Of a stretch of 64,000 nt of DNA, positions 5,827-33,231 are shown piece after piece. Position 1 is the first letter of the stretch. Each line of letters starts with the position of its first letter. The notes beneath the pieces were generated by a model that was given only the letters and a program-made list of their open reading frames with translations, did not search any database and was not told the origin of the DNA. Position numbers and translations under genes: made by a program. This DNA is from Candidatus Epulonipiscium sp. (GTDB taxonomy: Bacteria; Bacillota; Clostridia; Lachnospirales; Defluviitaleaceae): the NCBI GenBank assembly GCA_012519205.1, contig JAAYQR010000011.1, positions 62,001-126,000 on the forward strand, written 5' to 3'.

Positions 5827-5907
5827 TGCGGATGAAGGGAGTCGAACCCCCACGCCAAAGGCGCTAGATCCTAAGTCTAGTGCGTCTGCCAATTCCGCCA
5901 CATCCGC
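5827..5907 (-). tRNA. tRNA-Leu(UAG)
   Basis: Acceptor GCGGATG pairs with CATCCGC. The anticodon loop CTTAGGA gives anticodon UAG. The long variable arm of a class II tRNA and the GGTTCGACTCC T-arm are present. CCA is not encoded (CTA follows the discriminator). Confidence 0.97.
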
Positions 5908-5926
5908 ATATTCAAATTATAAGCTA

Positions 5927-5999
5927 TGAGCTACCCGGGACTCGAACCCGGGACACCTGGATTAAAAGTCCAGTGCTCTACCGGCTGAGCTAGTAGCCC
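5927..5999 (-). tRNA. tRNA-Lys(UUU)
   Basis: Acceptor GGGCTAC pairs with GTAGCTC (one G-U). The anticodon loop CTTTTAA gives UUU; D-arm AGCTCAGCCGGTAGAGC and T-arm GGGTTCGAGTCC are normal. No encoded CCA. Confidence 0.97.
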
Positions 6000-6004
6000 A
6001 CAGT

Positions 6005-6079
6005 TGGCTGGGTAGGAAGGATTCGAACCTTCGCATGCAGGAGTCAAAGTCCTGTGCCTTACCGCTTGGCGACTACCCA
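6005..6079 (-). tRNA. tRNA-Gln(UUG), CCA encoded
   Basis: Acceptor TGGGTAG pairs with CTACCCA, discriminator G, followed by genomic CCA (6005-6007). Anticodon loop CTTTGAC gives UUG. The U1-A72 pair is typical of tRNA-Gln. Confidence 0.97.
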
Positions 6080-6087
6080 TCAATAAG

Positions 6088-6162
6088 GGTGAATAGTGGG
6101 ATTCGAACCCACGGTCTCCAGAGCCACAATCTGGCGCTTTAACCAGCTAAGCTATACCCACC
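6088..6162 (-). tRNA. tRNA-His(GUG)
   Basis: Anticodon loop ATTGTGG gives GUG. The acceptor has the extra G-1 opposite C73 that is the identity element of tRNA-His, followed by GTGGGTA paired with TATTCAC including two G-U pairs. CCA is not encoded. Confidence 0.96.
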
Positions 6163-6185
6163 ATATCTCTTAATCATTTTATATA

Positions 6186-6259
6186 CGTGCCTGCAGGGAT
6201 TCGAACCCCGGACACATGGCTTAGAAGGCCATTGCTCTATCCTACTGAGCTACAGGCAC
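6186..6259 (-). tRNA. tRNA-Arg(UCU)
   Basis: Acceptor GTGCCTG pairs perfectly with CAGGCAC, discriminator G. Anticodon loop CTTCTAA gives UCU, reading AGA/AGG, common codons in this AT-rich genome. No encoded CCA. Confidence 0.97.
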
Positions 6260-6265
6260 ATATAA

Positions 6266-6336
6266 AGCGGGTGATGGGAATCGAACCCACGTACCCAGCT
6301 TGGAAGGCTGGTGTTCTACCATTGAACTACACCCGC
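6266..6336 (-). tRNA. tRNA-Gly(UCC)
   Basis: Acceptor GCGGGTG pairs with CACCCGC, discriminator U. Anticodon loop CTTCCAA gives UCC. No encoded CCA. Confidence 0.97.
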
Positions 6337-6339
6337 AAA

Positions 6340-6417
6340 TGGTCGGGGTGACAGGATTCGAACCTGCGACCTCTTGATCCCAAATCAAGCGCTCTAGCCA
6401 AGCTGAGCCACACCCCG
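6340..6417 (-). tRNA. tRNA-Pro(UGG), CCA encoded; first gene of the tRNA operon
   Basis: Acceptor CGGGGTG pairs with CACCCCG, discriminator A, then genomic CCA (6340-6342). Anticodon loop TTTGGGA gives UGG. It lies closest to the promoter, 17 bases downstream of the -10 box. Confidence 0.97.
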
Positions 6418-20500: not shown

Positions 20501-22732
20501 TTATAATTTACCATGGAAACTCCTACTAATTACTTCTTGCTGCTGCTCTTTGCTTAATTTGTGGAAATTAACCGCATAACCGGATACCCTAATTGTTAGA
20601 TTGGGATGCTTTTCCGGGTGCTCCATAGCTTCTATCAATTTTTCCCTATTGATTACATTGACATTAAGATGATGAGCATTTTGAATAAAATAGCCCTCTA
20701 GAATACCTACTAAATTGTTGATTTGTTCGTCTTTTGCCTTCCCTAAAGTAGTTGGTTCTATACTAAGGGTACAGGATATACCATCCTTACAGGCCTCATA
20801 AGGAAGTTTTGCTACAGAGTTAAGGGAGGCTAGTGCTCCTTTTTTATCCCTATTATGCATAGGATTAGCCCCTGGAGCAAAGGGTTCCCCCATTTTTCTT
20901 CCATCGGGGGTATTTCCCGTTTTCTTTCCATATACCACATTAGAAGTTATTGTTAATATAGATAGGGTATGCTTTGCTCCTCTATAGGATGGAACCTTAG
21001 AAAGTTCATTATTAAATTCGACAACCAAATCCCTAGCAATATTGTCTACCCTTTCATCATCGTTACCATATTTAGGAAAATCCCCTTCCATCGTAAAATC
21101 GATTATCATTCCTTTTTCATCTCGAATAGGATGGACTTTGGCATGTTTTATAGCACTTAAAGAATCTGCTACTACCGATAGACCGGCTACTCCAAAAGCC
21201 ATAAATCTTCCTACCTCGGTATCATGAAGTGCCATCTGCAACTTTTCATAAGCGTATTTATCATGCATATAATGAATGACATTCATAGTATTAACATAAA
21301 GGTTGCAAAGCCAGTGGCTATAATATGAAAATCTTTTCACTACTTCTTCATACTCTAATGTATCTCCTAAGATAGGTTCCATATATGGGCCTACCTGCTC
21401 CTTACTTATTTCATCTTTTCCCCCATTAAGACTCATTAAAAGTACCTTAGGAAGATTGCATCTAGCCCCAAAAAACTGCATTTGTTTTCCTATTTTCATG
21501 GCAGATACACAGCAGGCAATCCCGTAGTCATCCCCATAGCTTGTTCGCATTATATCATCATTTTCATATTGTATGGAATCTGTTTCAACAGAAACTTTGG
21601 CACAATATTTTTTAAATTCTAAAGGCAGCCCGTTAGCCCAAAGCACAGTTAGATTAGGTTCCGGAGCAGGACCTAAGGTATATAAAGTATTAAGGAATCT
21701 ATAAGAGGATTTGGTTACTAATGTCCTTCCGTCTTCTCCCATACCCCCAAGGGATTCTGTAATCCAAAGAGGATCACCTGCAAATAATTCGTTATACTCT
21801 GGGGTTCTAAGTACTCTTGCCATCCTAAGTTTTAAAATAAAATCATCTATTATTTCTTGTATTTCTATTTCTGTAAAAGTACCTTCTTTTAAATCCCTTT
21901 CGAAATATATGTCTAGGAATGTACTTACCCGCCCTAGAGACATAGCGGCTCCATTTTGTTCCTTTATGGCCCCCAGATATCCAAAATATAGCCATTGCAC
22001 TGCTTCTTTTGAGTTATGGGCGGGTTTTGATATATCCACCTCATAAAGTAGTGCCATCTTCTTTAATTTGTCTAAAAAATCAATTTGACGATATATCTCT
22101 TCGGAAAGTCTAATATTCTCATCAGTCATCGCCTTTTTGGCAATATTTTTCTTGTCCTTTTTCTTTTCCTCTATTAAAAAATCTACGCCATACAGGGGAA
22201 TTCTCCTATAATCCCCTATAATTCTTCCCCTACCATAGGCATCGGGAAGACCTGTTATAATTCCATGCCTTCTTACTTTACGCATTTCATCACTATAAAC
22301 CCTAAATACTCCATCATTATGAGTAGTTCTATAAGCAAAATGTTCCTCTATATTCCTATCTAATTTATACCCATAAGCTTCACAGGCCTGTCTCGTCATA
22401 CGGATACCCCCAAAGGGATTTACCCCTCTTCTTAAAGGTCTGTTAGTTTGAAATCCTACTATTATTTCTTTTTCTTTTTCAAGATATCCTGGAGCATATG
22501 TAAGTAGGGACGATACTGTAGAAGTATCGATATCTAACACTCCACCCCACTCAGATTCCAATCTACATAAATCGTTATATTTTTTTAAAAGCTCCCTTGT
22601 TCTATCTGTAGCCCCCTCTAGAAAACCATCATTACCTTCATAGGGTGTATAATTTTTTTGTATGAAATCCCGCACATTGATTTCTTTTTCCCATACTCCT
22701 TTTCTAAAACTTCTCCATTGATTTACTTCCAT
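20501..22732 (-). CDS. pflB: Formate C-acetyltransferase (pyruvate formate-lyase)
   Basis: Oxygen-sensitive glycyl-radical enzyme that converts pyruvate and CoA to acetyl-CoA and formate, 743 aa, full length. The tandem active cysteines are in [13 protein letters not shown] (near residue 410) and the radical glycine is in RVSGYAVNF near the C-terminus (about residue 724). [27 protein letters not shown] is the typical N-terminal core. AAAAGGAGG precedes the ATG. No activating enzyme gene (pflA) lies next to it. The 5' leader is a ZTP riboswitch. In purine-starved anaerobes this enzyme supplies formate for one-carbon metabolism. Confidence 0.97.
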
Positions 22733-22751: not shown

Positions 22752-22862
22752 ATAAAAAAACCGCCTGAACAAACAGGCTTAATATAGTCTGTTTGCCCAG
22801 GCGGTCGGCGAGTTTTCCCTGTATTTCCCGTGGGTTATCCCACTATCCGCCAGTCATACAAG
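22752..22862 (-). promoter_or_regulatory. ZTP riboswitch (pfl motif) with intrinsic-terminator expression platform
   Basis: Read on the minus strand, the aptamer starts with GACTGGCGGATAGTGGG (from 22855) and continues with AACCCACGGGAAA. It closes with the hallmark CCGCCTGGGCA (22794-22804). This fits the pfl/ZTP consensus, in which the last element forms the ZTP-binding pseudoknot. The same bases (22789-22804) pair with 22761-22776 to build a terminator ending in a U run at 22752-22760. ZTP binding should keep them in the aptamer and let transcription run into pflB-purH. ZTP accumulates when 10-formyl-THF is short. Confidence 0.93.
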
Positions 22863-22877
22863 GATTATTCGTTTTGC

Positions 22878-24440: not shown

Positions 24441-25127
24441 TTAATGTTCGGCATTAATGATAGCACCCTGAGATTTACCTTTTGCAATATCTACAGATGC
24501 GGAGGCACCTATTCGGTTTGCCCCTGCCCTTATTAGGGCTTCGGCATCTTCTTTAGTCTTTATTCCTCCTGAGGCCTTAACCCCCATGGTATCCCCTACG
24601 GTCTTTCTCATTAATACTATATCATCTCTTATAGCGCCTCCCCCTAAAAAACCCGTGGAAGTTTTTACAAAATCCGCTCCTGCTTCTTTGGCTAATAGAC
24701 AAGCCTTTTGCTTTTCCCCATCGGTTAAAAGAGAGGTTTCTATAATAACTTTTACTATGGCTCTATCCTTAACAGCATGAACTACAGCCTTAATATCATC
24801 TCTTACAAAGTCATATTTCTTATCCTTTAGGGCCCCTATATTTATTACCATATCTACATCTGTAGCCCCATTTTCTACAGCATCCTTAGCTTCCAATGCC
24901 TTCATACCAGTAATCATAGCCCCTAAGGGAAATCCTATTACTGTGGTTATGCCTATGTCACTATCTTGAAGTAAATGCTTTGCCATGGGAACGTAACAAG
25001 GATTTACACAAACTGTAGCAAATCCATATTCAATAGCCTCCTTACATAATTTCTTAATGTCCTCTTCCCTAGTATCTGGCCTTAACATTGTATGGTCAAT
25101 CATTGTAGCTAACTTTTCATTTATCAT
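24441..25127 (-). CDS. deoC: Deoxyribose-phosphate aldolase
   Basis: Cleaves 2-deoxyribose-5-phosphate to glyceraldehyde-3-phosphate and acetaldehyde in deoxynucleoside breakdown, 228 aa, class I TIM barrel. The family opening [20 protein letters not shown] is present. Catalytic elements are [46 protein letters not shown], the Schiff-base lysine in [10 protein letters not shown], and VKASGGIKT with the second lysine. AGGAGGTATTGTA precedes the ATG. It is a single gene between the permease and the RNA leader. Confidence 0.97.
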
Positions 25128-25466: not shown

Positions 25467-25495
25467 TTGACAACTAAATTTTTTTATGATATATT
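25467..25495 (+). promoter_or_regulatory. Near-consensus promoter of the structured RNA / proXVW transcript
   Basis: TTGACA (25467-25472), 17-base spacer, TATATT (25490-25495) on the plus strand. Start of transcription expected near 25502. Confidence 0.82.
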
Positions 25496-25501
25496 GCAAG
25501 C

Positions 25502-25797
25502 TACAATTAAATTGTGAAGTACAAATCATGAGTAAGTATTTAGTGAGGTTGGGCATGTAAGTCTTAATATAATTCATCCATAGGACTTGTAGGTGTTAAT
25601 TCAAGCTAAATCATAAAACCGAAATTGTTTTGGAAAAACTTTAATTAGGTAGAACTGGGGTTTATTCAGGATCAACTTATAAATAAGGTGGTCATGAATT
25701 AGACTATGCAAATGGTTTAATGTGAGCCATAAAGGCGAAACTTAAGCACTCTAACTCTACGTATTAGCGATAATACTAGAGTTAGGGTGCTTTTTGT
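25502..25797 (+). ncRNA. About 300-nt structured RNA leader, class not recognised, ending in a terminator
   Basis: Between a strong promoter and a strong terminator there is no credible ORF but several good helices. A hairpin pairs about 25556-25566 with TAGGACTTGTA (about 25581-25591). CTAAAT near 25605 can pair with ATTTAG near 25539 to enclose it. Others are CCGAAA/TTTTGG (about 25619-25633), GATCAACTTAT with ATAAGGTGGTC (about 25670-25694, one mismatch), ATTAGAC/GTTTAAT (about 25698-25720) and GCC/GGC near 25730. It ends 41 bases before proX, in the same direction. I could not match it to T-box, SAM, lysine, cobalamin, TPP, FMN, glycine, ydaO, GEMM, 6S, SRP, tmRNA or RNase P. It may be a cis-regulator of the osmoprotectant transporter or a free small RNA. 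Confidence 0.65.
25746..25797 (+). terminator. Intrinsic terminator between the RNA leader and proX
   Basis: Arms of about 15 bases, AGCACTCTAACTCTA and TAGAGTTAGGGTGCT, with a 17-base loop, followed by TTTTTGTTTT. It lies upstream of the first gene, so expression of proX needs read-through or antitermination, unless another promoter lies in the 41-base gap. Confidence 0.9.
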
Positions 25798-25838
25798 TTT
25801 AATCCAGTAAAAAAAGAAAATCAGGAGGAAAAAGGGGT

Positions 25839-26729
25839 ATGAAGTTAAAAAAATTTTTAGGGATAATGGTATCTATATCATTGCTTATGGGGGTTGTAGG
25901 ATGTGCAAATACCGAAAATACATTAGGTGCAACTGAAAATAAAAGTGTAATTAATCTAGGTGTTACACCCTACCCACATATAGACCTTATAACTGAAATA
26001 CTTGAATTATCCTTAGGAGAGTTAGGTTATGAAACAGAAAGAGTTGAAGGTGATGTAGGTTTTATGTATCTAGGAATGTCCCAAGGCGATATAGATATCT
26101 ATCCAGATGGATGGTTACCAATTTTACACGGTAACTATATCGATAAATACGGCGATAGACTAGAAGTCGGTAACACGATATATGAACAAGTTACCATGGG
26201 AATAGTTGTTCCTACCTATGTGGATATTAACTCCATCCAAGAACTTAAGGATAATGCAGAAATATTTGATAATAAAATAGTTGGTATCGAACCTAGCGCT
26301 GGTATCATGTTAACAGCTTCAGAAACAATAGATGCTTATGGAATGGATAATATCGAATTATTAGAAGGAAGTACCCCTGCTATGCTAGCAGAAGTAGATA
26401 ATGCTGTTAGAGCAGAAGAACCTATAGCATTTTTGGGTTGGAGACCCCATATTATGTTTTCTGAATATGACCTTAAGGTATTAGAAGATGATATGGATAT
26501 TTGGGATTTTGATGATGTTCGTTCCGTTATGAACCCAGAACTAAAAGAAAAATCACCAGAGGCATATGAACTTATACAAAATTTCAAAATTAGTATAGAT
26601 GATATAGAAGACATATTATTTAAACTAGAACAAGGTGAAAACTCCTTAGAAGAATTATCTGCTGAGTGGTTAGCAAATAATAGGGGATTTCTTGATGAAA
26701 TATTAGAACAAGGGGTGGCATCTAAATAA
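25839..26729 (+). CDS. proX: Osmoprotectant (glycine betaine/proline-type) ABC transporter binding lipoprotein
   Basis: Extracytoplasmic solute-binding protein of 296 aa. A signal peptide ends in the lipobox MGVVGC (Cys at about 22) for membrane anchoring. The OpuAC fold opens with INLGVTPYPHIDLITEILEL and has QGDIDIYPDGWLPILHGNYIDKYG, rich in aromatic residues that could form the cation cage for a quaternary amine. IVGIEPSAGIMLTASETIDAYG and PIAFLGWRPHIMFSEYDLKVLED are also typical of ProX/OpuAC. AGGAGG lies upstream of the ATG. The stop is one base from proV. It delivers a compatible solute to ProW under osmotic stress. Confidence 0.93.
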   Translation: MKLKKFLGIMVSISLLMGVVGCANTENTLGATENKSVINLGVTPYPHIDLITEILELSLGELGYETERVEGDVGFMYLGMSQGDIDIYPDGWLPILHGNYIDKYGDRLEVGNTIYEQVTMGIVVPTYVDINSIQELKDNAEIFDNKIVGIEPSAGIMLTASETIDAYGMDNIELLEGSTPAMLAEVDNAVRAEEPIAFLGWRPHIMFSEYDLKVLEDDMDIWDFDDVRSVMNPELKEKSPEAYELIQNFKISIDDIEDILFKLEQGENSLEELSAEWLANNRGFLDEILEQGVASK

Positions 26730-26730
26730 T

Positions 26731-27927
26731 ATGAACAACCCAAAAGTAAGCATTCAAAAAGTATACAAGATATTTGGAAAAAGGACTACAAAAGCTTTAG
26801 AAGATCTCAAAAATGGAAAAGATAAAGAAACTATTTTAGAAGAAACAAAACAGGTCATTGCTCTTAATAATATTTCCCTTGACATTATGCCAGGGGAAGT
26901 ATTCGTTATAATGGGGCTATCCGGAAGTGGTAAATCAACTCTTGCAAGATGTATTAATAGATTAATAAGACCAACTTCAGGAAAAGTCTTAATAGATGGC
27001 AAAGATATTACTAAAATGAATAGTACACAATTAAGGGAAACAAGGCGTAAAAAAATGGGTATGGTATTCCAAAATTTTGGGTTATTTCCACACTTGAATA
27101 TATTAGATAACGTGGCTTATGGATTAAAAATTCAGGGAGTCGAAAAATCTAAAAGATATGAACAGGCAGGCGCGGCCATCGACCAAGTTGGTCTAAAAGG
27201 TTGGGAAATGAAATATCCCGAAGAATTAAGTGGTGGTATGCAGCAAAGAGTGGGCCTTGCTAGAGCCCTAGCCAATGATCCTGACATTTTGATTATGGAT
27301 GAAGCTTTTAGTGCGTTAGACCCTCTAATCCGTGCTGATATGCAAGATGAATTAGTAGACCTACAAAAAATTATGAAAAAAACAATTATATTTATTACCC
27401 ATGACTTGGATGAAGCTATAAAAATCGGTGATAGAATAGCATTAATGAAAGATGGGCAAGTGATCCAAGTTGGAACAGCCCAAGATATACTCATAAATCC
27501 TGCTGATGAATATGTAAGTAAATTCACAGAAAATGTAGACAAAAACAAAGTATTTACTGCCGAGCAAATAATGAGAGAACCCACTGCCCTAGCAAATATT
27601 ACAGATAACCCTCAGGATATTATGGATAAAATTATCGAAAAAAAGATAGATTCTATTTTTGTAGTTGATAAGGATAATAACTTAAAAGGACTTATAAGGC
27701 GTAAGGAACTAGAAAGAGCTATCAAAAATAAAGATACTAATATAACGAAATACCTAGACTTTAATTTTACTAAAGTAAGAAAACATAGATCCCTAGAATC
27801 TTTATTAGCACCTCTTGCTAATTCCAATGAACCAATTGCTATAGTATCTTCCAAAAATAAACTTTTAGGAATTGTAATAAGAAGCTATATATTCGAAGCT
27901 ATTACAGGAGGTGTAAAGAGTGAATAA
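26731..27927 (+). CDS. proV: Osmoprotectant ABC transporter ATP-binding protein with CBS domains
   Basis: Cytoplasmic ATPase of 398 aa, the ProV/OpuAA type. A family-specific N-terminal extension (VYKIFGKRTTKALEDLKNGK) precedes Walker A GLSGSGKST (near residue 68), the Q-loop VFQNFGLFPH, signature LSGGMQQRVGLARAL and Walker B ILIMDEAFSALDP. Residues 275-398 form a CBS pair, which in OpuA senses ionic strength and in several Firmicutes binds c-di-AMP; neither is proven here. The gene starts one base after proX and overlaps proW by eight bases. Confidence 0.95.
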   Translation: MNNPKVSIQKVYKIFGKRTTKALEDLKNGKDKETILEETKQVIALNNISLDIMPGEVFVIMGLSGSGKSTLARCINRLIRPTSGKVLIDGKDITKMNSTQLRETRRKKMGMVFQNFGLFPHLNILDNVAYGLKIQGVEKSKRYEQAGAAIDQVGLKGWEMKYPEELSGGMQQRVGLARALANDPDILIMDEAFSALDPLIRADMQDELVDLQKIMKKTIIFITHDLDEAIKIGDRIALMKDGQVIQVGTAQDILINPADEYVSKFTENVDKNKVFTAEQIMREPTALANITDNPQDIMDKIIEKKIDSIFVVDKDNNLKGLIRRKELERAIKNKDTNITKYLDFNFTKVRKHRSLESLLAPLANSNEPIAIVSSKNKLLGIVIRSYIFEAITGGVKSE

Positions 27928-28765
27928 ATTACCCATTATACCCTTGGCAGATATAATAAATACATTTCTTGACAAAAATATAGAAAAAATTACCCCTATA
28001 ACAAGAGCAATTAGTAAGAGATTGGAATGGTTTATAAAAGGGTTTGAAAAAAACTTAATTGCTATAAACCCCATTGTCCTAATATTAATTATTGGTATTT
28101 TGATATGGTTTTTATTAAAGGATAAAAAACTAAGTGTAATTCTTATGATACTACTTTCAGTTATCCTAGGCCTAGGATTATGGAAAGATGCCATGGGGAC
28201 ATTATCATTAGTAATGATAGGAACTGTTATCTCCCTACTAATGGGCATACCTATAGGTATTGCAGCAGCCCTTGATAATACAATAGAAAAAATCATAAGA
28301 CCTATACTTGATTTTATGCAGACCTTACCAAGCTTTGTATATCTTATTCCCGCAGTTATGTTTTTTAGCCTAGGTAAAGTATCAGCTCTCGTAGCTATTT
28401 TGATATTCTCTATGCCACCGGCTATTAGACTAACTAATTTAGGTATTAGGGAAGTACCGGAAGATAAAATCGAAGCTTCAAAAGCTTTTGGGGCTACTAA
28501 ATTCCAAATACTTTTTGGTATTCAACTACCTCTAGCACTCAAAACTATTATGACAGGTATTAACCAATGTATTATGATGGCTCTATCTATGTCAGTAATA
28601 GCGGCAATGATAGGGGCTGGTGGATTAGGAAGAAGTGTCCTTACAGCAATGCAAACCGTAGATATTGGTATGGGTATTGAAGGTGGATTAGGAATAGTCT
28701 TATTAGCTATAGTTTTAGATCGGGCAACAGAAAAGATAGCACAGAATAATCAAGGGATTCGCTAA
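27920..28765 (+). CDS. proW: Osmoprotectant ABC transporter permease
   Basis: Membrane permease of 281 aa, ProW/OpuAB type, with about six membrane segments after an amphipathic N-terminal helix (1-45). The EAA loop reads VPEDKIEASKAFGATKFQILFGIQLPLALKTIMTG, and GAGGLGRSVLTAMQTVDIGMGIEGGLGIVLLAIVLDR is the typical C-terminal part. The ATG lies eight bases inside the proV end with GGAGG upstream, so the genes are translationally coupled. It ends the operon, and accessory DNA begins directly after it. Confidence 0.95.
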   Translation: MNKLPIIPLADIINTFLDKNIEKITPITRAISKRLEWFIKGFEKNLIAINPIVLILIIGILIWFLLKDKKLSVILMILLSVILGLGLWKDAMGTLSLVMIGTVISLLMGIPIGIAAALDNTIEKIIRPILDFMQTLPSFVYLIPAVMFFSLGKVSALVAILIFSMPPAIRLTNLGIREVPEDKIEASKAFGATKFQILFGIQLPLALKTIMTGINQCIMMALSMSVIAAMIGAGGLGRSVLTAMQTVDIGMGIEGGLGIVLLAIVLDRATEKIAQNNQGIR

Positions 28766-30423: not shown

Positions 30424-31701
30424 TTAAATACCATCTTCTTCGATTATTATTTTCTTCAGCTTCCCCTCCAACTTACTTATAATTCCAGTCACCAAGGCAT
30501 TACCCATCATAAAATATCTTTGTCTCCTCGTCATACCCGTATTTGTCCAATTAGCAGGAAACATCTGTAATAATTCTGCCTCTATTTCTGTGATTTTTCT
30601 ATTTTCCCCTAAAATCTCATCATAAATTATATGTGATGATCTATTTACAGTACTTTCACTTGTTAACATCGTTCTACTGGGCAGGTCTAAAGGATCTGGG
30701 AAGGACATATTTCCTTCAGAAAATACATATTCATGCCCAGATTTACTTATTCTTTTAATCCTTTTTGAGCCTTTCAAATAACTCCATTTTTCTAATTCTT
30801 TACCTTCTATTACATAGTACTCCAAGTTTGTATCCTGATATTTTCTAGCTTCTTTAACTATATCTCCCAAAGTATAAAGCTTTTCTGAAATTTGTTCAAT
30901 TTGATTAAAATTTATTATCTCTCCATTAATACACATCCCTGTCGTCAAAAACTTCCCATCCTTATAATTTTTTGATATATCTACTGAATCTTTAAATTCT
31001 TTTATTGACTTATATTCTGGCTTTACATCAGTAGTTTTTATGGGAAAAATATCATTAAAGAAACCATCCTCTATAAGATATTTTTCCCTATTTTTTCTCG
31101 AAATTATTGCTTTTGAATACTTTGTAACTTTTAATGATGCAAATATGAAAACCCTTCGTCTCCTTTGGGGCATTCCATATTCCCCAGCATTTATCATTCT
31201 CCATTGAGTCATATATCCGAGATCATCTAAAGTTTTCAACATCACTGCAAAATCTCTGCCTCTTTGATTTGCAGGAGACTGAAGTAATCTATCTACATTT
31301 TCAAGCAAAACAAAAGGTGATCTTTTCTCATATAATACATCAACTATATCCCACCATAGTACTCCTTTTTTCCCTTGAATACCCATCTCATTTGATAAGC
31401 TCCTTGCTACAGAATAGTCCTGACAAGGAAATCCCCCTACCAAAAGTGTATGTTCTGGTATTTCCTTTTTATGAACCTTATTTATATCTATATTGCTATG
31501 ATTTTTATGTCCAAATCTTTTTGTATAGCAGTCATAAGCAGGCTGCGTCTTAGTAGATGGCTCCCATTGATTTGCCCAAACAAAATCCCATTCTCCATTT
31601 TCTATAGCAAGTCCTGTTTCTTTATTAAACTCTTTTATATGATTTAAACCTACTCGAAATCCACCTACACCAGCAAAAAGTTCAACAACTTTCAATCCCA
31701 T
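30424..31701 (-). CDS. DNA (cytosine-5-)-methyltransferase of a Sau3AI-type restriction-modification system
   Basis: Modification enzyme, 425 aa, that transfers methyl from SAM to C5 of cytosine. Conserved motifs: I VELFAGVGGFRVGL (residues 5-18), IV GGFPCQDYSVA with the catalytic Cys, VI VLLENVDRLL, VIII QRRRRVFIFA, and X MGNALVTGIISKL at the C-terminus. The target-recognition region lies between VIII and IX (about 190-360). Because its partner is a Sau3AI-family nuclease, the likely product is GATm5C. The gene follows the endonuclease in the same direction, 57 bases apart. It appears intact. Confidence 0.95.
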   Translation of the reverse strand: MGLKVVELFAGVGGFRVGLNHIKEFNKETGLAIENGEWDFVWANQWEPSTKTQPAYDCYTKRFGHKNHSNIDINKVHKKEIPEHTLLVGGFPCQDYSVARSLSNEMGIQGKKGVLWWDIVDVLYEKRSPFVLLENVDRLLQSPANQRGRDFAVMLKTLDDLGYMTQWRMINAGEYGMPQRRRRVFIFASLKVTKYSKAIISRKNREKYLIEDGFFNDIFPIKTTDVKPEYKSIKEFKDSVDISKNYKDGKFLTTGMCINGEIINFNQIEQISEKLYTLGDIVKEARKYQDTNLEYYVIEGKELEKWSYLKGSKRIKRISKSGHEYVFSEGNMSFPDPLDLPSRTMLTSESTVNRSSHIIYDEILGENRKITEIEAELLQMFPANWTNTGMTRRQRYFMMGNALVTGIISKLEGKLKKIIIEEDGI

Positions 31702-31758
31702 TATTATCCCTCCGTTTGATACTTCTATTGTAACTTATTTTGTATAAAAGATCAAACT

Positions 31759-33231
31759 CTATTTTAATTTGTTTTCAATTTGTTTAAGTACATAATCATT
31801 ATTTAACCAAAAGCACTGTTTTGTCATCCTATTACCATCTGGCAATATATCCGTATCCCTACTTATTTCTCCATTACCATATTTTATACCATCTACCAAA
31901 TGTGCTCCTTTTTGTGCATGAGGTCTTACATGCAATATCTTTGTATTTGATTTCTTAGGTAAATTATTTCTTATCGGTTTGCCTTTTTCTATTGTAAATT
32001 TAATGCCATCTTTAAAAATTTTTACAGCTCTCTCCCACTCTTCCTGTAATGTCCCTTCTATATCACTTACAGCCATATTCCAAAATTTTGCACCAGTTAA
32101 ATAATAATTATTTTCTTTCTTCTTATAAATTACAAATAAAATTTTTGTTTCTAAAAAATAGTTATAAACGTCTGATTCTTCCCAACTTTGGTTTATAAGA
32201 TCCATAATTTTAAAAGTTGGAAATGACATCGATTCTCTAATTTTTTTATTGGATTCTAATCTGACTGCTTTAACTTTTATATTTGCTTTCTCAAATTCCT
32301 CAGCATTTTTTGTTTTAACTCCCAATATTTCCAATGCTAAACGACTATACCTATCTTTACTTTTTATATTTTTATCACCAAAAAATTTTTCGAATAAATC
32401 TATATCTTTTTTGTTTCTATACTTATTAATTTTATCTAAGACAAAGGCTTCAAACTCTACTTTCTCATCATCTTTTAATATTCTATCTTCTTTTTCACTA
32501 TCTCCTAAAATATAATTTCGTAGCACATATGTCATATAAGATGCTTTTAAAGAAAATGCCCTAGGCTTAGCTAGTATTTCTGAATTGGGTTGAGGGGTTC
32601 TATCTTTAGAACTTGATGATTTAGTTGCAGCACCCAAATACAAGGTATCGCTTTCTGATAACTCATGAGCTTTACCATCTACTACCTTTTGTTTAATTTT
32701 ATAAAAATCACTTTCTATAATTCGTAAGTCTTCTCCTTTCGGGCTAAGCATATAGATATAGTTTATCATATAATCCAACCTATCCTCTATATGCGGTTCC
32801 CACAGATAGTATAATAACAGTATATTTTTTATTTTTTCCCAAGCATTACTATTATAAAAATCCATATCTATAATAGCCATGTAATTTATCATTGAAATTA
32901 TTAATCTTTCTTTTGCAGAGATAGATTCATTTTTATTGATTTTATAAGGTGTTACTTTTAATTCTACCTCAGCTTCTGGAAAATCTGCCTCAGATATATT
33001 ATCTGCTTTGTAGTGAAAATATCTTTCCTCTATTATTTCTCCTAAACCACCTTTACGACTTTTGTTTTCATAAGATGTCCTATATTCTTCCTCTGTAACC
33101 TCTTTTATAACCTCTGTTAAAAAATATTTGTCTTCATCACAAACATCTTTAAATGTTTTACCTTTCAATTTTTGTGCATATTTATAAATAGATTCCTTTT
33201 CTTTTGGATTATATTTCCTAAACATTGACAT
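31759..33231 (-). CDS. Sau3AI/MutH-family type II restriction endonuclease
   Basis: A 490-aa nuclease, almost the length of Sau3AI (about 489 aa). The N-terminal MutH-like domain has KSRKGGLGEIIEERYF, DFPEAEVELKVTPY (catalytic D, E and K) and SAKERLIISMINY. The middle has GKAHELSESDTLYLGAATKS and RAFSLKASYMTYVLRNYILGD, and the C-terminus has MTKQCFWLNNDYVLKQIENKL. All of these follow Sau3AI as I know it; the second half is a pseudo-repeat of the MutH fold with degraded catalytic residues that allows DNA looping. It should cut 5' of the G in GATC. A GGGGGAGTT ribosome-binding site precedes the ATG. It looks intact and is upstream of its methylase. Confidence 0.93.
   Translation of the reverse strand: MSMFRKYNPKEKESIYKYAQKLKGKTFKDVCDEDKYFLTEVIKEVTEEEYRTSYENKSRKGGLGEIIEERYFHYKADNISEADFPEAEVELKVTPYKINKNESISAKERLIISMINYMAIIDMDFYNSNAWEKIKNILLLYYLWEPHIEDRLDYMINYIYMLSPKGEDLRIIESDFYKIKQKVVDGKAHELSESDTLYLGAATKSSSSKDRTPQPNSEILAKPRAFSLKASYMTYVLRNYILGDSEKEDRILKDDEKVEFEAFVLDKINKYRNKKDIDLFEKFFGDKNIKSKDRYSRLALEILGVKTKNAEEFEKANIKVKAVRLESNKKIRESMSFPTFKIMDLINQSWEESDVYNYFLETKILFVIYKKKENNYYLTGAKFWNMAVSDIEGTLQEEWERAVKIFKDGIKFTIEKGKPIRNNLPKKSNTKILHVRPHAQKGAHLVDGIKYGNGEISRDTDILPDGNRMTKQCFWLNNDYVLKQIENKLK

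Follow-up and report, generated by a model that had tools for sequence, protein, structure and literature searches.

A candidate cis-regulatory leader RNA class with mutually exclusive terminator and antiterminator folds upstream of osmoprotectant genes in Bacillota

RESULTS

Locus and parts of the proXVW leader

The window, that is, the whole stretch of 64,000 nucleotides analysed here, contains a leader RNA of about 290 nt (25514-25797) situated between a divergent deoC-like gene (24441-25127, minus strand, label read off the translation) and the genes proXVW (25839-28765, plus strand). Pfam and NCBIfam models identify proXVW as a glycine-betaine-type ABC transporter, with a binding protein of the OpuAC type, an ATPase of the ProV type that carries a CBS domain and a permease of the ProW type, as a first-pass annotation of this DNA had assumed. 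For the permease, the best NCBIfam model is TIGR03416 at 289.1 bits, under its cut-off of 363, and the ProW model scores 245.1. The features of the locus are listed below with the evidence for each, where A3 is a MAFFT alignment of 56 sequences, and ON and OFF denote the two exclusive folds described further on.

25467-25495, plus strand: sigma-70 promoter TTGACA-17-TATATT, 11 of 12 consensus bases, TG before the -10
25514-25521, plus strand: conserved 5′ element GUGAAGUA (alignment A3)
25522-25632, plus strand: P1, closing the 5′ domain (25522-25528 with 25626-25632; covariation)
25530-25535, plus strand: GAGUA, conserved internal-loop element facing GAAA before the P1 3′ arm (alignment)
25538-25611, plus strand: P2, irregular long hairpin in the 5′ domain (covariation)
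25633-25638, plus strand: near-invariant GAAAAA linker joining the two domains (alignment)
25650-25663, plus strand: antiterminator 5′ strand with core UAGAACUGGGGUUU, ON-fold partner 25744-25759 (covariation)
25664-25699, plus strand: P3 of the four-way junction (98.0% of cells paired)
25700-25719, plus strand: P4 of the four-way junction (98.8% of cells paired)
25720-25743, plus strand: P5 of the four-way junction, with a GA-rich conserved internal loop (92-95% of cells paired)
25744-25759, plus strand: shared strand AAGCACUCUAACUCUA, terminator 5′ arm (OFF) or antiterminator 3′ strand (ON)
25744-25800, plus strand: intrinsic terminator plus U-rich tail, OFF fold (compensatory pairs)
25823-25828, plus strand: Shine-Dalgarno sequence AGGAGG of proX, beyond the RNA fold
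25839-26729, plus strand: proX-like gene, glycine betaine-type ABC substrate-binding protein (Pfam OpuAC, 1.9e-57)
26731-27927, plus strand: proV-like gene, ATPase with CBS domain (TIGR01186, 432.9 bits, cut-off 326.6)
27920-28765, plus strand: proW-like gene, permease (TIGR03416, ProW model, Pfam BPD_transp_1)

Most of what the first-pass annotation had read from the letters of this locus holds, with some boundaries moved. The near-consensus promoter at 25467-25495 is borne out, and the start codon of proX lies at 25839 on the same strand, 41 bases past 25797. The strong terminator that had been put at 25746-25797 is present, with its hairpin at 25744-25792 and its U-rich tail reaching about 25800; it is unlisted by a simple terminator scanner, yet it is dominant in the computed folds. 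The extent of the RNA has to be redrawn, in that the conserved part begins only at GUGAAGUA, position 25514, and takes in the terminator. The roughly 300 bases that had been called free of ORFs do contain short plus-strand ORFs, such as MSKYLVRLGM, and only such short ones. The AUG of the MSKYLVRLGM-type ORF is not conserved among the homologs in A3, and a leader peptide was rejected, there being no conserved ORF in the alignment of homologs.

The leader has a computed fold of -86.5 kcal/mol (z -4.86), which beats all 100 dinucleotide shuffles, with the caveat that much of this stability comes from the terminator. In A3, the homologs share a two-domain layout, in which GUGAAGUA and the P1/P2 5′ domain are followed by GAAAAA, the core UAGAACUGGGGYYU, P3, P4, P5 and the terminator. 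Specifically, P1 shows compensatory changes in all seven of its pairs, with 84% of cells paired, while P2, which has a conserved GUGAG/GUAAG-type internal loop and a variable tip, shows them at 15 of its 17 main pairs, the outermost pairs being less certain (60-79% paired).

Distribution of the RNA class

Homologs of the core were recovered by a plain DNA search of 146 relatives. The covariance model R1, built from 13 sequences (alignment A1), matches 29 of 392 genomes sampled from the order (a few low-scoring ones being uncertain), 15 of 391 from the class and 30 of 398 from the phylum, each count including the window genome; by genus, homologs occur in 14 of 174, 11 of 223 and 22 of 267 in the respective samples. 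A pattern scan of GTDB species yielded 34 records, 31 of which score at least 85 bits with R1. Weak reverse-strand R1 matches were discarded as matches to the terminator palindrome. After removal of identical cores, 85 distinct homologs remain across many Bacillota families, and the named hosts include Acetobacterium wieringae, Alkalibaculum, Petrocella, Anaerotalea alkaliphila, Thermohalobacter berrensis, Anaeromicropila populeti, Mobilitalea sibirica and Haloplasma.

A second model, R2, which covers the ON junction and omits the terminator hairpin, recovers almost the same set of genomes from the phylum as R1 (31 versus 30), and no terminator-free form was seen. The window genome has one copy of the RNA, also with R2, and an origin as a repeat or transposon was rejected on this ground. 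Of 55 homologs, 69% have a promoter with at least 10 of 12 consensus bases directly ahead of the RNA, compared with 4.6% for shuffled upstream sequence. Two Haloplasmataceae members located before ablB (L106:4368-4489 and L118:6089-6219) have P2 nearly absent and P4 and P5 reduced, and keep the GAAGUA/GAGUA/GAAA elements and the antiterminator core; these seemingly shortened RNAs are possibly a minimal form.

One strand shared by two exclusive folds

The left arm of the terminator has two alternative partners. Pairing with the core UAGAACUGGGGYYU gives the ON fold, where the resulting antiterminator helix closes a four-way junction with P3, P4 and P5 that leaves no unpaired bases between the helices; in the OFF fold the arm goes into the terminator hairpin. 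The antiterminator helix (columns 250-263 with 388-403 of A3) is paired in 96.6% of cells, as against 15-62% once the partner is slid, and has 69 both-side changes versus 12 in shuffles, with compensatory changes at 8 of 12 pairs. Because R1 had left the antiterminator core unpaired, this helix was not selected by the search. Furthermore, when the best pairing partner of the terminator left arm was sought without bias by duplex scanning, the same core came first in 33 of the 56 homologs. An initial register of the antiterminator (250-253/400-403 plus 256-261/392-397) gave way to one in which A392 is bulged out; there, 260-263 pair with 388-391, and these pairs covary.

The whole ON fold shows compensatory changes at 50 of 62 pairs, with 91.1% of cells paired versus 33-45% when slid and 753 both-side changes versus 250 in shuffles; RNAalifold alone gives compensatory changes at 43 of 53 pairs. 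For the terminator, 13 of 15 pairs have compensatory changes and 94.9% of cells are paired. Columns 388-391 covary both with the antiterminator (260-263) and with the terminator right arm (442-445), as would be expected of one strand serving two exclusive helices. Covariation was scored by shuffle and slide controls, not by R-scape, and the shuffles ignore relatedness. A lack of conservation and covariation among relatives would have refuted the proposal of a structured leader; both turned out to be strong, and the homologs have the same architecture.

In energy calculations, a transcript that ends before the terminator right arm has an antiterminator probability of at least 0.5 in 28 of the 56 homologs, and in the complete transcript the terminator prevails in 54 of 56, the antiterminator never. 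Since the full transcript prefers the terminator, termination would be expected without a signal, and the default OFF state is our inference from this modelling. The antiterminator is only marginal in the energy models, and what tips the balance is not shown. No base pairing linking the 5′ domain to the switch was seen in the covarying fold, so that any action of this domain would have to go through tertiary contacts or a protein.

Genes behind the RNA

Sorted by the gene that comes first downstream, the 85 RNAs form eight groups. The largest comprises KamA/AblA (lysine 2,3-aminomutase, ablA; 36 of 85), followed by family-3 amino-acid ABC binding proteins (23), BCCT transporters (13), AblB (5), ProV (5) and ProX (1, the window locus); the other two genes encode an amino-acid permease and a PLP-enzyme/acetyltransferase fusion, one each. 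Representatives of AblA, AblB, BCCT and ProV pass curated cut-offs. The set covers the synthesis of N-epsilon-acetyl-beta-lysine by ablA-ablB, betaine-type transport by BCCT and proXVW, and an amino-acid ABC transporter associated with them. AblA supplies beta-lysine, from which the compatible solute N-epsilon-acetyl-beta-lysine is made (PMC9337991), and AblB is the putative acetyltransferase completing it. At ablA-headed loci, ablB is usually next where enough sequence is covered.

A reciprocal test was made from the side of the enzyme. An AblA homolog (E ≤ 1e-150) is found in 17 of the 146 relatives, and all 13 homologs at 64% identity or more have the RNA directly upstream, with ablB as the next gene in all 13 and a family-3 binding protein then in some; the RNA is not upstream of the four at 56-60% identity. 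A family-3 binding protein follows ablA-ablB at L147, L148, L149, L154 and L103. The shared loci tie the family-3 ABC system to the ablA-ablB response, which suggests an osmotic role. The system possibly serves the uptake of an osmolyte or of lysine, its substrate being unproven, and with 23 binding proteins of unproven substrate the regulon could be partly lysine-related. The fusion, a PLP threonine-synthase-like domain joined to a GNAT acetyltransferase, lies directly behind the RNA (L077:1642-3015) and may make an unrecognised acetylated osmolyte.

Search for known RNA families

At gathering score, Rfam 15 has no family at the RNA, either in the window or in 33 homologous loci. The match to a known family that would have undone the first-pass reading did not turn up, and the failure to fit a known riboswitch class, ydaO/c-di-AMP included, is upheld. 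Specifically, there is no match in the window or the 33 loci to the c-di-AMP riboswitch (ydaO/yuaA), the Na+-I riboswitch (DUF1646 motif) or, at the RNA, the T-box; models for the first two are presumably included in Rfam 15. The same scans detect T-boxes in L010, L087 and L155, away from the RNA, and a later Rfam scan of ablA loci likewise showed T-boxes at a distance from the RNA and nothing else. With lenient settings, the window RNA and two homologs gave only chance-level matches far below threshold; those to PK-repBA, microRNAs, snoRNAs and plastid UTRs were rejected, being far sub-gathering, in several cases on the wrong strand and inconsistent between RNAs.

Elsewhere in the window, the Rfam scan reports seven tRNA genes, which form a cluster (5827-6417, minus strand), and a ZMP/ZTP riboswitch (RF01750, 64.2 bits; 22788-22867, minus strand) that directly precedes genes resembling pyruvate formate-lyase (20501-22732) and purH; the scan reports nothing at the proXVW leader. 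From translations alone, without a search, a DNA cytosine methyltransferase adjoins an apparent Sau3AI-type restriction enzyme (30424-33231, minus strand).

DISCUSSION

We consider it probable that these RNAs constitute a class of cis-regulatory leaders acting as a transcriptional switch for osmoprotectant genes, OFF by default and turned ON by an osmotic-stress signal. The new cis-regulatory RNA that had been suspected ahead of proX is supported by conservation, by covariation, by same-strand osmolyte genes at 85 loci and by the antiterminator. Comparison of homologous sequences supports well the RNA class, the strand switch between its two folds, the promoter and the set of genes behind it; the default OFF state, activation under osmotic stress and direct sensing are inferred, with no transcript, termination or ligand data. 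The locus qualifies as a cis-acting transcription attenuator, with a conserved terminator and antiterminator that exclude each other ahead of a coding region, and as a riboswitch candidate, having a conserved covarying structure and an expression platform before functionally related genes. We found no report of an RNA of this class in CC-licensed literature, subscription papers and preprints being outside the scope, and the class is apparently undescribed so far.

In the proposed mechanism, without a signal the left arm of the terminator would form the terminator and transcription would stop. Under hyperosmotic stress, a signal, whether ionic (K+ or Na+, for example) or a metabolite, would bind or stabilise the folded RNA, which would block terminator formation and turn the osmoprotectant genes ON. 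Direct sensing is inferred from the size of the RNA and its conserved internal loops. Whether the RNA is a new riboswitch class that itself senses an osmotic-stress signal (K+/ionic strength, glutamate, betaine or acetyl-beta-lysine) is a question on which we are evenly divided, the ligand not having been identified.

An RNA switch at ablA has precedent, since Na+-I and c-di-AMP riboswitches govern this gene at other loci (PMC9337991). The Na+-I riboswitch likewise has a leader fold overlapping a terminator, is an ON switch and controls ablA, eam and others (PMC9337991), whereas the present class is without an Rfam match and has a 5′ domain and a four-way junction. The c-di-AMP riboswitch shares the terminator-based control of osmolyte genes but has no Rfam match at the loci of this class, whose fold favours an ON switch. 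The proX motif (SRC-29-1) is a riboswitch candidate before proX, thought to sense osmoprotectants, but its 17 representatives are mainly from Spiribacter and it acts by RBS occlusion instead of a terminator (PMC8632094); comparing platforms, not sequences, the leader is not a member, as it has a terminator switch with the Shine-Dalgarno sequence at 25823-25828 outside. The opuB motif is also a riboswitch candidate before an osmoprotectant-type ABC transporter gene, but is mostly from Enterobacteriaceae and Shine-Dalgarno-based, and its ligand is said to relate to shikimate/aromatic amino acid metabolism (PMC11109978); judged by its published description and not by sequence, in that P1 of the motif is partly formed with the Shine-Dalgarno sequence of the ORF, the leader does not belong to it. 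T-box leaders resemble the class in being large and working by antitermination, with a terminator and an antiterminator that exclude each other, yet the class targets osmolyte genes and has no T-box match.

The opposite sign of control remains possible, though unlikely: a molecule plentiful in the unstressed cell, c-di-AMP or the osmolyte itself, would bind and favour the terminator, and stress would relieve it. Such genes are turned off by c-di-AMP riboswitches, and in Dehalobacter, ablA is controlled by a tandem Na+/c-di-AMP system (PMC9337991). In the energy calculations, however, the terminator is already the stable fold without a ligand, and it is the ON fold that accounts for the conserved core.

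Slightly less plausible still is that the same RNA and switch are read by an RNA-binding protein, an antiterminator or terminator factor, rather than by a ligand or ion. Several known antiterminators work via proteins, which gives this reading a precedent, and the large 5′ domain without a base-pairing link to the switch would suit it. The conserved region is nevertheless far bigger than known antiterminator sites of the LicT/SacY type, and no regulator gene lies behind the RNA, within a survey limited to the first downstream genes.

The alternative raised by the first-pass annotation, a free-standing, trans-acting small RNA with its 3′ end at the terminator, has very little left to support it: it could point to the RNA's own promoter and strong terminator and to the terminated transcripts that would accumulate, but it leaves the narrow same-strand gene set at 85 loci and the conserved antiterminator without a role, and these are what favour cis regulation. 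Lysine supply as the input, read by a divergent T-box or another kind of amino-acid leader, can be set aside almost entirely, for although lysine is the substrate of AblA, some targets are amino-acid transporters and the antiterminator architecture is common to both, no T-box matches at the RNA in scans that do find T-boxes at three of the loci, no leader peptide is conserved, and betaine transporters are not lysine genes.

It is known only in part how bacteria convert osmotic stress into the transcription of compatible-solute genes, and the RNA sensors known for it are few. The leader class offers 85 members, a switch whose ON and OFF folds are resolved, and target genes that form a coherent set, acetyl-beta-lysine synthesis and betaine-type uptake among them, so that ligand discovery becomes a direct experiment. 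If the RNA itself senses the stress signal, the class would be an RNA osmosensor for compatible-solute genes in a broad Bacillota lineage.
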